This document shows, piece by piece, positions 34,525-38,680 of a DNA stretch of 64,000 bases. A program made the position numbers and the translations under genes. The notes under the pieces were generated by a model. It was not told where the DNA came from. It worked only from the letters and a program-made list of their open reading frames with translations, and did not search any database. Positions within the stretch are counted from its first letter, which is position 1. Every line of letters starts with the position of its first letter. The stretch is from Bacteroidota bacterium (GTDB taxonomy: Bacteria > Bacteroidota > Bacteroidia > B-17B0 > Aurantibacillaceae): NCBI GenBank assembly GCA_013298715.1, contig JAAFIQ010000004.1, positions 124,001-188,000 of the forward strand. Reading direction: 5' to 3'.

Positions 34525-34604
34525 AATCAAGCCGAATACTCGGATTTATGGGCGTAACTCTCCGTCAGAGTAAAAACAGTTCAAATGAGAAGAAGGGTAA
34601 CAAG

Positions 34605-34740
34605 TAACAAAGGTCTTGCTTCATTTTTTGTGTTTTGACACTCAAACCTTTTTTCCACCGTGCACTGGCTTTTGCAATTGCAAGAAAGTGTGTAATTTAA
34701 CATAGCAAAAAACTAACGCCTGCTTGGAAAACGTTAGCTG
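34605..34740 (+). repeat. Intergenic attC-like repeat, copy A
   Basis: Begins TAACAAAGG and ends GTTAGCTG, about 136 bases. Inside, TTTTTTG (34624-34630) pairs with CAAAAAA (34706-34712). The outer part of the site and its GTTA-containing end belong to different gene units: GTTAGCTGTCATTTGT at 34733-34748 is reverse-complementary (14 of 16) to 35385-35400 at the end of the MazEF unit. Confidence 0.55.
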
Positions 34741-34825: not shown

Positions 34826-35071
34826 ATGGACGTTTCATTAATATCAATAGGTAATTCAAAAGGTATTCGACTTTCGAAGACTTTGATTGAAAAATACAAC
34901 CTTCAGGATACAATTGAATTGATTCTTGAAAAAGGTTATATCATTCTTAAACCAAAGACGAAAGCTCGCAAGGGCTGGGAAAGATCTTTCAAAAAAATGC
35001 ACGAAAATGGCGACGACAAATTGCTTGTTTCAGATGTTTTTAAAGACGAAGACTTCGAAGAATGGAATTAA
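34826..35071 (+). CDS. MazE/AbrB-type antitoxin
   Basis: An 81-residue protein with a SpoVT/AbrB N-terminal DNA-binding fold: MDVSLISIGNSKGIRLSKTLIEKY, with the GNSKGIRL loop that is diagnostic, followed by an acidic tail ending DEDFEEWN that would wrap the toxin. It overlaps the MazF-like toxin gene by 10 bases. The pair is bounded by repeat copies A and B as a unit of about 650 bases. Confidence 0.88.
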   Translation: MDVSLISIGNSKGIRLSKTLIEKYNLQDTIELILEKGYIILKPKTKARKGWERSFKKMHENGDDKLLVSDVFKDEDFEEWN

Positions 35072-35385
35072 AGCAATATCAAATTGTATTGGTCAATCTC
35101 GACCCGACAATAGGCAGTGAAATGAAAAAGACTCGCCCCTGCGTTATTATTTCCCCAGACGAAATGAATAAATATTTACAGACAATTGTAATAGCTCCTA
35201 TGACAAGCAATTCGAAAAGTTATCCGACAAGAGTTCCCGTTAAACATAACAAGACCAAAGGTTGGGTTGTATTAGATCAAATTAGAACTATCGACAGAAA
35301 ACGTATTGTAAAAATTCTTGACAACTTGACTGAAAAAGAAATATATAACGTTAAGACAATTATACACGAAACATACGTTGCGTAA
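35062..35385 (+). CDS. MazF/PemK-type endoribonuclease toxin
   Basis: A 107-residue toxin that should cleave mRNA at a short motif. The pattern is YQIVLVNLDPTIGSEMKKTRPCVIISPDEMN, with the conserved Lys-Thr-Arg-Pro-Cys segment near residue 24, TIVIAPMTSN near 41 and GWVVLDQIRTIDRKRI near 67. The start overlaps the antitoxin gene and the stop codon is the first bases of repeat copy B. It is a complete frame. Toxin-antitoxin pairs are common stabilising cargo in cassette arrays. Confidence 0.92.
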   Translation: MELKQYQIVLVNLDPTIGSEMKKTRPCVIISPDEMNKYLQTIVIAPMTSNSKSYPTRVPVKHNKTKGWVVLDQIRTIDRKRIVKILDNLTEKEIYNVKTIIHETYVA

Positions 35386-35502
35386 CAAACGTCAGCTAAC
35401 ACAGGTCTTGCTCCATTTTTTGCGTGTTAACGCTCAAATGCATAACTTGAGAAAGCAAAAAACTGTAAGTAGCTGCAAAACTTTACCAGCAAGGCGTGCG
35501 AC
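35385..35502 (+). repeat. Intergenic attC-like repeat, copy B
   Basis: From the MazF stop: ACAAACGTCAGCTAAC (35385-35400), then TTTTTTGC (35416-35423) paired with GCAAAAAA (35455-35462), and a right end TTTACCAGCAAGG near 35482. The core between the hairpin arms is nearly the same as in copy C, including an identical 20-base stretch (35431-35450 and 37927-37946). The right end is complementary to the 3' end of the next unit (15 of 21). Confidence 0.55.
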
Positions 35503-35592
35503 GACTTCTTCGAGACAAAAATTCGGCTCGACAACAACATTCCTTTAACAAATAAGTGACAACGGACAACCATTTTTAAGTTTGACATTTTA

Positions 35593-35608
35593 ATCGTACT
35601 TTTACGAT
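35593..35608. promoter_or_regulatory. Candidate ArsR operator 1
   Basis: ATCGTACTTTTACGAT is a perfect 6-bp inverted repeat with a 4-base spacer, immediately upstream of the first ArsR-like frame. A sister site of the same length and arms (ATCGTAATATAACGAT) lies at 36322-36337. Confidence 0.6.
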
Positions 35609-35611
35609 AAC

Positions 35612-35968
35612 ACGGCAAACAACACTAAGACAACTTCAACTCATAGACACGGCCAATTAGCCCGGCTCTGCGCTTCTCTTAGTATTACTTCTCGAATAGC
35701 TATTTTAGAAACACTCGCATGTCAGGACAGTTGCGAAGGAAATATTCACGAAGTGGCGGGCTTAAGCAAATTCACGGTCAGGATGAATTTAAAATACCTT
35801 AAAAGATACGGTTTAATTAAAGGCTCTCTTACTTCCAAAAACATATCATATTGCCTCGACTATGAAAAGTTTGACGAGTTTAAAGCCTTGTTCGATGAAT
35901 TTTACATTATAGTAACAAAGAATAAATCAAAAATAAATGCTGAAAACGTACCTTGCACAAATAAATAA
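35612..35968 (+). CDS. ArsR-family regulator, start codon uncertain or lost
   Basis: A winged-helix protein paralogous to the next gene. With canonical codons only GTG at 35753 is available, giving 71 residues that lack the first helices. But the same frame is open upstream and encodes LARLCASLSITSRIAILE and the HEVAGLSKFTVRMNLK helix, clearly ArsR-like. No ATG/GTG/TTG lies in that stretch. An ACG at 35612 is placed where the family ATG would be and follows the operator by 3 bases. Either ACG is used, or the start has mutated and the gene is weak or dead. Confidence 0.55.
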   Translation, partial: TANNTKTTSTHRHGQLARLCASLSITSRIAILETLACQDSCEGNIHEVAGLSKFTVRMNLKYLKRYGLIKGSLTSKNISYCLDYEKFDEFKALFDEFYIIVTKNKSKINAENVPCTNK

Positions 35969-35973
35969 TAAAA

Positions 35974-36303
35974 ATGGGCACGGCGAAAACAGAAGAATTT
36001 ACAGTAAAGGACAACAAAATAGCTAAATACACAAAGGCTTTGGCTCATCCTGCACGAGTGGCAATACTTCAATTACTGATTAAAAAACAGGCTTGTGTTT
36101 GCGGCGACATTGTAAACGAATTACCTCTTTCGCAAAGCACAGTTTCGCAACATTTAAAAGAACTCAAAGACGCAGGTTTGATAAAGGGTGACATTGATGG
36201 CTCAAAGATCTGTTACTGCATTGACGAAAAGGAATGGAATACCGCAAAGAAGTATCTAACAACATTTTTTGAGGCATACGTTAATAAAAACGAGTGCTGT
36301 TAA
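35974..36303 (+). CDS. ArsR/SmtB-family transcriptional regulator
   Basis: A 109-residue winged-helix repressor. The helices KYTKALAHPARVAILQLLIKK, CVCGDIVNELPLSQSTVSQHLKELKDAGLI and the wing GSKICYCID are typical, and the CVCGD cysteine pair near residue 43 suits metal or metalloid sensing. It follows the first ArsR-like gene by 5 bases and precedes the arsenate-reductase-like gene. It should bind both 16-bp palindromes here; this is inferred. Confidence 0.9.
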   Translation: MGTAKTEEFTVKDNKIAKYTKALAHPARVAILQLLIKKQACVCGDIVNELPLSQSTVSQHLKELKDAGLIKGDIDGSKICYCIDEKEWNTAKKYLTTFFEAYVNKNECC

Positions 36304-36321
36304 AAAAATTTGCTAATAGTA

Positions 36322-36337
36322 ATCGTAATATAACGAT
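36322..36337. promoter_or_regulatory. Candidate ArsR operator 2
   Basis: ATCGTAATATAACGAT, with arms ATCGT and ACGAT. It shares length and arms with the site at 35593-35608 and lies 46 bases before the arsenate-reductase-like gene, where it could control that gene separately from the tandem regulators. Confidence 0.6.
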
Positions 36338-36382: not shown

Positions 36383-37120
36383 ATGGGAACAATAAACAAG
36401 CTTATTAAAACATTGACTATTTTGTTAGCAATTACAACTCTTACCGCATTTATGCCTCCTTCGAGTGCAACTTTCTATAAGAAGCTAAAAAAATACTGTC
36501 ATACTCTCCCCAATGAGTTTAATCAAATCTCAGAAGAGCGAAAAAAAGACCTGATTGAAATGGGTAATTTCGTAATCGAAAAAAGAACAACAGGGAAGGT
36601 TTGTAAATTACTCTTCATTTGTACAAGTAATTCGCGTCGCAGCCACATGGGACAAATATGGTCGCAAACCGCCGCCACCTATTATGGAGTTGATAGTGTT
36701 TGGACATTTTCGGGCGGAACTGAAGCGACAAAAGTAAACATCAATGCAATTAACGCTTTAAGGCGTTGCGGTTTTAGTATTACAACTTCACAAGCTACCG
36801 ACAACCCGATTTGGTTTGTTTCGTTAGGTAATAAAATTGGGGGGTTCGGTATCTTTTCTAAAAAGTATAACAACACAATAAATCCTAAAAGCGAGTTTTG
36901 CGCCTTAATGGTTTGCTCCGAAGCAGACAAATCCTGTCCTTCTGTTGAAGGGGCTGAGCTAAGAATTCCGTTACCATACGATGATCCAAAGTATTATGAC
37001 AATACTCCCTCGCAAGACCAGAAATATGATGAGCGTTGCAGACAAATTGCACGAGAAATGTTCTTCATGATGGATTATGTAAAAGAAAAACTAATTTTAA
37101 AAGTCGAAAGCAAAAAATAA
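36383..37120 (+). CDS. Arsenate-reductase-like / low-molecular-weight phosphatase family protein with signal peptide
   Basis: A 245-residue protein. The phosphatase P-loop CTSNSRRS (Cys-X5-Arg-Ser near residue 80) and the CPSVEGAELRIPLPYDDP segment match the protein-tyrosine-phosphatase/ArsC group of Bacteroidota. Unlike most of these cytoplasmic proteins it begins with MGTINKLIKTLTILLAITTLTAF, a signal-peptide-like segment; an internal Met24 could give a form without it. It stops one base before the DUF2490 gene and belongs with the two ArsR genes, so arsenate or a related oxyanion is a likely target. Confidence 0.78.
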   Translation: MGTINKLIKTLTILLAITTLTAFMPPSSATFYKKLKKYCHTLPNEFNQISEERKKDLIEMGNFVIEKRTTGKVCKLLFICTSNSRRSHMGQIWSQTAATYYGVDSVWTFSGGTEATKVNINAINALRRCGFSITTSQATDNPIWFVSLGNKIGGFGIFSKKYNNTINPKSEFCALMVCSEADKSCPSVEGAELRIPLPYDDPKYYDNTPSQDQKYDERCRQIAREMFFMMDYVKEKLILKVESKK

Positions 37121-37855
37121 ATGCACCGCTCGTCACTCCTCTATTCCATAATAATTTTGCTTTCTATTAAAACCGCAAAAGCCCAAAACAGAGAAATCGG
37201 TGGTGCTTTTCCTACTATTGACCACAGCGGAACTTTTAATAATAAATGGAGTTATAGTTTGTATTATTTTGGCGCATTTAGTTTAATAAATCCTGAAATC
37301 GCTGGAGTAAAAGACGAACCACACTTAAACGCTTTCTATTCTGAACAAGCGCTTTCGTTTAATGTAAACAAAGAATGGTCTTTTACCGGCAGTTATGTTT
37401 ACGAGCGCCAAAATGCTTTTCGCACAACATACCGCAACGAAAATAGGTTTTACATTCAAACAACTTACAAATACAATCTTAACCTCACCAACGTTAAGCA
37501 TCGCTTGCGTTACGACGGTCGTTACATAGAAAACAGAGTAACAAAAGAAACGCCCTACACAAATCGACTGCGTTATTTAATCGGTTTAAGTACTCCCCTT
37601 AAAAAAGAAAGCGATAAAGTTTACTTCACCGCCTACAATGAATTCTTTTTTGACTTAGATAAAAGTTCGACGGCAATCTATAGCGAAAATTGGGCTTTTG
37701 CGGGCTTCGGTTTCAAAACAAAAAGCATTGGCAAATTTGAAATTGGACCTTTGTATATTTTTTGGGTTGCTAATAAAAGTAACGACTTAATTAATTTCTA
37801 CTATTTACAGTTGACCTGGGTGACACACTTAAATTTCAAAAAGGACAAAGGTTGA
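37121..37855 (+). CDS. DUF2490 family outer-membrane barrel
   Basis: A 244-residue protein with a signal peptide (cleavage near KAQN) and repeated strands: WSYSLYYFGAFSL, WSFTGSYVYERQNAF, NRFYIQTTYKYNLNL, HRLRYDGRYIENR, YFTAYNEFFFDL and a closing NFYYLQLTWVTHLNF. These features fit the DUF2490 barrel family. It follows the phosphatase-like gene directly and may be a periplasmic or outer-membrane partner. It ends before repeat copy C. Confidence 0.75.
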   Translation: MHRSSLLYSIIILLSIKTAKAQNREIGGAFPTIDHSGTFNNKWSYSLYYFGAFSLINPEIAGVKDEPHLNAFYSEQALSFNVNKEWSFTGSYVYERQNAFRTTYRNENRFYIQTTYKYNLNLTNVKHRLRYDGRYIENRVTKETPYTNRLRYLIGLSTPLKKESDKVYFTAYNEFFFDLDKSSTAIYSENWAFAGFGFKTKSIGKFEIGPLYIFWVANKSNDLINFYYLQLTWVTHLNFKKDKG

Positions 37856-37874: not shown

Positions 37875-38096
37875 GTGGCACGCCCAGCTTATAACACCAA
37901 GCAAGTGACCATTTTTTGCGGGTTTGCGCTCAAATGCATAACTTGACATAGCAAAAAACTAGGCAAGCCCCGAAACCGTCAGGTTGTGAAAAAACTCAAA
38001 TGAAATGGCTGAGGATCGCTTAAACGGAAATTGTTTCGGGTTGGTATCCGAATAAAAAAATGTGTAATTTAGTTTTTTCATAGGCTGCGGTTACCA
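37875..38096 (+). repeat. Intergenic attC-like repeat, copy C
   Basis: Begins near the R-box-like TATAAC (37890) and ends GTTACC at 38090. It has TTTTTTGC (37912-37919) paired with GCAAAAAA (37951-37958), then a second module of about 115 bases with a perfect 9-bp inverted repeat GAAAAAACT (37988-37996) and AGTTTTTTC (38071-38079). The right module is shared with copy D only. The left flank 37875-37895 is complementary to the start of its own unit in copy B (15 of 21). Confidence 0.55.
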
Positions 38097-38452: not shown

Positions 38453-38680
38453 GCGCCTTTGTAGACTGTTAAAAGTAAGCAAGCACAATTTTTGGCACAG
38501 GGCTGATCAAATGCGGGGGAAGAAAGACAATAGCCAAAAGTTGATGTCTGCTTGGAAACCGTTAGTTTTAAAAAACTCAAATAAAGTTGCCATGAATCGC
38601 TTAAATGAAAAACGATTCGTGAAGGTGCCCGAATAAAAAATTGATTATCTTGTTTTTTTGACGGACTGCTGTTATGCCCC
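38453..38680 (+). repeat. Intergenic attC-like repeat, copy D
   Basis: Left flank GCGCCTTTGTAG complementary to the start of its unit (9 contiguous bases CGCCTTTGT, 13 of 20 overall against 38090-38109). TTTTGGC (38490-38496) pairs with GCCAAAA (38533-38539). The right module aligns with copy C over about 100 bases (AAAAACTCAAAT, ATCGCTTAAA, CCGAATAAAAAA). It ends at CTGTTATGCC, overlapping the last codons of the opposing gene. Confidence 0.5.

Follow-up and report, generated by a model that had tools for sequence, protein, structure and literature searches.

Gene content and surroundings of the ars unit

The window, by which we mean the whole 64,000-nucleotide stretch of DNA that was analyzed, carries on its plus strand an ars unit with the order op1, R1, R2, op2, arsenate-reductase-like gene, and DUF2490 gene. 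Both palindromes that the first-pass annotation had reported, starting at 35593 and 36322, are present in the sequence, and they precede the first ArsR-like gene and the arsenate-reductase-like gene, respectively. Op1 (ATCGTACTTTTACGAT, 35593 to 35608) is a 16-bp palindrome with perfect 6-bp arms that lies before the tandem arsR genes, whereas op2 (ATCGTAATATAACGAT, 36322 to 36337) has one arm mismatch and starts 18 nt past the R2 stop codon. TAnnTTTG is the consensus of the Bacteroidetes -7 promoter box, and a match to it, TAAGTTTG (35577 to 35584, plus strand), lies 8 nt 5′ of op1. In related loci, the box is weakly enriched before op1 (exact matches in 9 of 97 cases versus 3.6 in shuffled sequences).

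The first ArsR-like gene, R1 (35612 to 35968, plus strand), codes for about 118 amino acids and has ACG at its presumed start position. It is followed by R2 (35974 to 36303, plus strand), an ArArsR-type ArsR of 109 residues that contains Cys41, Cys43, Cys80, Cys82, Cys108, and Cys109. Past op2 lie the arsenate-reductase-like gene (36383 to 37120, plus strand; 245 amino acids, CX5R motif CTSNSRRS, hydrophobic signal-like N terminus) and the DUF2490 gene (37121 to 37855, plus strand; Pfam PF10677, 1e-21). The arsenate-reductase-like protein stays below the cut-offs of the thioredoxin-type models (NCBIfam NF010053, 42.5 bits versus 215; TIGR02691, 34.8 versus 174.3), and the frame read from the next in-frame ATG at 36452 scores 15.7 bits with LMWPc, whose cut-off is 23.2. 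The signal-like N terminus, seen as a hydropathy feature of 36383 to 36470, also occurs in 17 of 90 distinct relatives, including the closest one, which comes from the tandem locus of genome G298; such a reductase outside the cytoplasm would be odd. A DUF2490-like protein, recognized by eye, follows arsC in the ars operon of one relative (L168). Neither an efflux gene nor a methylase gene was found ahead of the next repeat in the open reading frame list or with Pfam, and an Rfam search of the whole window gave no match at the gathering threshold.

The ars unit lies between the second and third of four structured repeats on the same strand, which resemble the attC sites of integrons. Repeat 1 (34603 to 34740, plus strand) carries an extra insertion and scores 55.2 bits with our covariance model; repeat 2 (35395 to 35489, plus strand; 87.6 bits) separates mazEF from the ars unit; repeat 3 (about 37890 to 37985, plus strand; 83.4 bits) marks the end of the ars unit; and repeat 4 spans 38468 to 38568 (plus strand; 39.8 bits). 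Repeats 2 and 3 were among the copies from which the model was built. A genome-wide search with this model returned 13 matches at 12 places, and the repeats outside the window lie on contigs C1 (524949, 528176, 528625, and 530502), C28 (1708), C37 (4977), C38 (2820), and C8 (55636). The repeats are about 95 nt long, have pairing arms, and separate single genes or operons in the fashion of integron cassettes. Integron attC sites have conserved ends and variable arms that nevertheless pair. By eye, the CTAAC..GTTAG ends are kept and, of 7 copies compared, several show paired changes in their arms, while the two window copies among the 7 have mismatched arms. None of the 12 stretches of this draft genome (46 contigs) that matched the IntI integrase model TIGR02249 exceeded its cut-off, and subthreshold matches to the same model were also present in 14 of 14 control genomes. 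On the sequence evidence, we describe the setting of the ars unit as a cassette-like array of attC-like repeats.

Two further observations concern this array. To the eye, repeat 3 seems chimeric, with a left arm of one type and a right arm of another that no longer pair, and this mixture seems to be what recombination between repeats would leave. The unit between repeats 1 and 2 (34826 to 35385) consists of an antidote-like gene (TIGR02609, below the cut-off) and a MazF/PemK-like toxin gene (PF02452, 2.3e-30).

R2 and the two palindromes

R2 matches Pfam HTH_5 (1e-14) and NCBIfam NF033788 (76.7 bits, cut-off 55). Cys41, Cys43, Cys80, Cys82, and the C-terminal CC are all invariant in an alignment of seven sequences, so that R2 has the full As(III) ligand set Cys41/Cys80/Cys82, and its upstream operator, op1 at 35593, is of the ATCGTAATATTGCGAT type. 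The operator of R773-type ArsR proteins differs from that of the ArArsR type. R773-type ArsR is likewise an ArsR repressor, and Cys41 and Cys43 of the R2 type correspond to its Cys32 and Cys34 (PMC11868830), but the further ligands are Cys80 and Cys82 in the R2 type versus Cys37 in R773. The closest characterized system is ArArsR of Arsenicibacter rosenii SM-1, which protects TTTTATCGTAATATTGCGATCACAATC in a DNase I footprint and which requires Cys41, Cys80, and Cys82 for As(III) and Cys41 and Cys82 for MAs(III) (PMC11868830, 2025). R2 shares with ArArsR Cys41, Cys43, Cys80, Cys82, and the C-terminal CC, and op1 is a palindrome of the same type as the footprinted site. Because both the cysteines and the operator motif match, the best reading of R2 is that of a repressor of the ArArsR type, with op1 as the site it binds. 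The two systems also differ: the main text of that paper describes one site and one ArsR, whereas the window has a second operator and R1, and the A. rosenii operon includes arsM, which the unit in the window lacks. For the A. rosenii arsRMC operon, the authors infer one common promoter (PMC11868830).

A search of the 4.01-Mb genome for ATCGTANNNNNACGAT gave three strand matches at two places only, namely the two sites described here, but the same pattern read backwards gave four. When up to two mismatches were allowed, the window contained 11 matches versus 8.2 expected, and 29 of 100 shuffles reached 11. The number or rarity of pattern matches alone is thus no proof, because the backwards control and the shuffles reach similar numbers. 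The evidence for the operators is their position, not their count. Across the 87 genomes of the order, a hand count gave at least 49 perfect palindromes of the form ATCGTANNNNTACGAT. Among the 49 listed, 40 have an R2- or R1-type gene no more than 100 nt away and one adjoins an ars-operon gene, which we take to be DUF6428-like; around the remaining eight, a search at E 0.01 over 1.5 kb, or as far as the contig reached, gave no frame resembling R1, R2, or three other operon proteins. In total, 41 of the 49 listed palindromes stand beside ars genes.

We also scored operator-like sites at R2-type genes against dinucleotide shuffles. An upstream site scoring at least 10/12 was present at 97 of 117 R2-type genes versus 0.93 expected, and a downstream site of the same quality at 38 of 117 versus 0.44 expected. 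In a pool of 191 distinct R2-type loci, op1 reached 10/12 in 171, op2 in 84, and both in 77. Control stretches of 60 nt displaced by +400 nt reached this score in 0 of 190 cases, and those inside arsR did so in 0 of 191; a score of at least 9 was reached in 2 of 190 and 0 of 191, respectively. These loci were recruited in part by an ArsC-like search, which had matches in 118 of 295 genomes, while 29 of them (L063 to L091) were recruited by the operator pattern itself and so favor op1 in the 117- and 191-locus counts and in the locus-by-locus scoring of single and tandem arsR. The 117-gene shuffle test, the 191-locus pool, and the counts of promoter boxes and gaps given below exclude loci whose flanks are short or whose genes are truncated; L011, where the G115 gene is present as a second, truncated copy, was kept in the 117-gene test with a score below 10. 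A set recruited by protein only, comprising the best 80 of 585 candidates, provided 71 loci whose arsR was not identical to an earlier one. In this best-80 set, op1 was present in 68 of the 70 loci with a flank, and op2 lay within 60 nt past the stop codon in 47 of 71.

The downstream site is weaker than the upstream one on average and fails to reach 10/12 in 107 of the 191 loci; that of the window scores 11/12. Its placement is narrow, as it starts 17 to 20 nt past the arsR stop codon in 65 of 106 loci with an op2 score of at least 9. The two sites also vary together: the end bases of op1 and op2 match in 169 of 176 cells versus 152.9 after permutation (L011 and L063 being excluded), and none of 10,000 permutations reached 169. 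In all three loci where op1 reads TTCG..CGAA, so does op2. The permutation and shuffle tests take no account of the relatedness of the loci. That both palindromes are chance sequences has practically no probability left: the genome-wide pattern count, at three matches in two places versus four for the backwards control, would allow it, but conserved position, spacing, covariation, and the footprinted homologue oppose it. The same footprinted homologue, placement, covariation, and ars neighbors give good support to the proposal of the first-pass annotation that the two palindromes are ArsR operators of one type.

Beyond the window's order, op2 was found in Chitinophagaceae, Pontibacter, and one Balneolaceae record, as named in the record titles among the best 80 of 585 candidates. 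To judge from the sequences, twin operators are a recurrent design in Bacteroidota, mostly around one arsR. The idea that two operators go with two ArsR paralogues fails as a rule, since only 8 of 87 genomes of the order have R1 and most twin-operator loci have one arsR. Between R1 and R2, no operator-like site was found, the best scores being 7 to 8/12 in all eight tandem loci scored.

The genome of the window has two more R2-type arsR genes, L159 on contig C28 and L165 on contig C3. Both have the operator ATCGTAATATTGCAAT in front and lack a downstream one, and the arsR gene on C28 (L159) is preceded, at a distance of about 160 bp, by an attC-like repeat.

R1, the first ArsR-like gene

The reading frame of R1 is open from 35594 to 35965, with the stop codon at 35966 to 35968. 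As a correction to the first-pass annotation, this frame has no ATG, GTG, or TTG before the GTG at 35753, which falls inside the helix-turn-helix. At 35612, three bases past its operator, there is an ACG where R1 of the closest relative, G302, has ATG, and the frame is led by ATG in all seven other R1 genomes. The two R1 proteins are 68% identical, and the frames differ by a pN of 0.21 and a pS of 0.75, the latter being saturated; a pN so far below pS indicates that the R1 frame has long been under selection. In the window, R1 (35660 to 35965) had no Pfam match at 1e-3 and scored 32.7 bits with NF033788 (E 4.9e-8, cut-off 55).

At E 1e-14, 8 of the order's 87 genomes were found to have R1. In the loci collected here, it lies directly upstream of an R2-type gene in 9 of 9 distinct sequences, R1 being separated from R2 by model score. 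In a class-wide search, 243 of 395 genomes matched the R1 model at E 1e-17, but R2-type genes score with it too, and 15 loci were sorted, so that any R1 genes in the others would have escaped notice. A scan of genome contigs with R1 alone confirmed no relative. Two R1-like genes came from the search outside the window's order: that of L198 has an open frame without the N-terminal part, and that of L275 still has Cys80.

The Cys41 and Cys82 columns are kept in all seven aligned R1 sequences and, by eye, in all nine. The Cys80 position, in contrast, is occupied by Ser in six of nine distinct R1 sequences, by Phe in one, by Asn in one, and by Cys in one, so that the residue is lost in 8 of 9. In the window it is Ser, and the three-thiol As(III) site of ArArsR is absent from R1. 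The C80S variant of ArArsR lost its response to As(III) and kept that to MAs(III) (PMC11868830). By its resemblance to this mutant, R1 suggests a methylarsenite-selective partner of R2. SpArsR of Shewanella putrefaciens 200 offers a parallel: with one of the three cysteines absent, it answers to MAs(III) rather than As(III), the behavior that we propose for R1, but its cysteine positions are unlike those of R1 (PMC11868830).

The first-pass annotation had proposed a double-tuned metalloid switch, a reading that is partly supported: the loss of Cys80 leaves room for a sensor pair, whereas two operators do not as a rule accompany two paralogues. On this reading, R1 without Cys80 would sense methylarsenite through two thiols, and not arsenite, and would act with R2 on op1 and op2, as a heterodimer or by binding on its own. 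The C80S behavior of ArArsR, the retention of Cys41 and Cys82 with Cys80 gone in 8 of 9, the position directly before R2 in 9 of 9, and a pN well below pS all speak for such a pair. Yet arsM was above the cut-off in 0 of 8 R1 genomes versus 4 of 79 others, with no R1-arsM link seen; R1 and R2 are unlike in their recognition-helix region; R1 of the window has no standard start codon; and R1 is confined to 8 of 87 genomes (E 1e-14). On balance, we consider a double-tuned pair quite improbable.

The missing start codon could also mean that R1 is decaying here, in which case only plain autoregulation by a single ArsR would operate and op2 would be an ancestral leftover. The ACG where G302 has ATG, the ATG-led frames of the 7 of 7 others, and the arm mismatch of op2 would fit such a course. 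However, nothing else interrupts the R1 frame, its pN is well below pS, ACG can start translation weakly, and op2 of the window scores 11/12 and keeps the conserved TTTG and A described below. Decay is an unlikely reading, although it is the less improbable of the two just considered.

How the downstream site may act

We propose that both palindromes are operators of R2 and that op2 is a second, local lock on the structural genes, a reading to which we assign a probability of roughly 75%. Without arsenite, R2 would bind op1 and shut the arsR1-arsR2 promoter in an autoregulatory manner, and it would also bind op2, placing a second lock on the arsC-like and DUF2490 genes. The action of op2 would be local, either on an internal promoter with a TTTG box that overlaps the 3′ end of arsR2 or as a roadblock. 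Binding of As(III) to Cys41, Cys80, and Cys82 would release R2 from op1 and op2. As a result, low basal expression of arsR would be possible while the resistance genes stay more tightly off. The sequences themselves show that both sites exist, how they are conserved and spaced, that they covary, and to which proteins R2 is related; binding, repression, and release by arsenic we infer from the homology to ArArsR and from engineered reporters.

In those reporters, a second ArsR site placed downstream of arsR lowered the background (PMC3918153). The pPR-arsR-ABS-egfp constructs (Stocker 2003, via PMC3918153) resemble the window in having operators before arsR and between arsR and the output gene, but they are artificial, made in E. 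coli and carrying the ArsR site of that species, whereas the arrangement in the window is natural and has an ArArsR-type site. In the open-licence literature that we searched, no natural ArsR operator placed after arsR turned up, which is a weak negative. Judged from the sequences, what is new is the recurrent second operator after arsR together with an R1 family that has lost Cys80; the paralogue pair as such is not.

For the local action of op2, we prefer an internal promoter, at about even odds. Both locus sets (60 and 48 loci) have, ahead of op2, a recurrent TTTG at positions -13 to -10 and a recurrent A at -4. In the window these are TTTG at 36309 to 36312 and A at 36318 (plus strand), which may be the box of an internal promoter and its transcription start. 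The gap between arsR and the next frame has a median of 55 nt in loci with op2 and 21 nt in loci without. The TTTG, the A, and the longer gap fit an internal promoter whose start lies immediately ahead of op2. Nevertheless, this promoter is unproven, because the full TAnnTTTG near the stop codon is absent from the op2 loci (0 of 58 and 0 of 48, 0 of 106 together) and looser matches to five of six box positions are about as common before op2 as in shuffles (22/59 versus 17.8/59). The other mode, in which op2 is a roadblock against leaky read-through from op1, appears somewhat less probable than an internal promoter.

The region just before op2 has a further recurrent feature. In the window, 36301 to 36312 is a run of A followed by TTTG and overlaps the arsR stop codon. 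The motif A5 plus TTT occurs in 24 of 58 loci with op2 versus 2 of 64 without, and in 8 of 48 versus 1 of 21 in the second locus set, where mostly a run of T stands ahead of the same TTTG.

R2 dimers on op1 and op2 might instead hold a repression loop. The two matching sites and their fairly constant distance of 357 to 419 bp, where both stand beside one arsR, would suit a loop, but the distances show no helical phasing (vector length of 0.05 at 10.5 bp) and the sites of the window are 729 bp apart. We know of no case of ArsR looping. The absence of helical phasing makes looping between op1 and op2 very unlikely.

A fuller picture would join three elements, namely a natural two-lock circuit, a subset of loci in which R1, as a natural equivalent of C80S, adds a methylarsenite-selective input, and a switch that travels as a whole in an integron-like cassette array; as a combination, we hold it to be more doubtful than any of the R1 readings weighed above. 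R1 and R2, as a natural pair of paralogues, would make the selectivity for arsenite versus methylarsenite testable. If op2 works as proposed, Bacteroidota would have evolved the leak fix of engineers, in which the repressor is given another binding site behind its own gene. The ars unit would then be a test case for how leaky autoregulated repressors can coexist with nonleaky targets and may provide natural parts for tight sensors.
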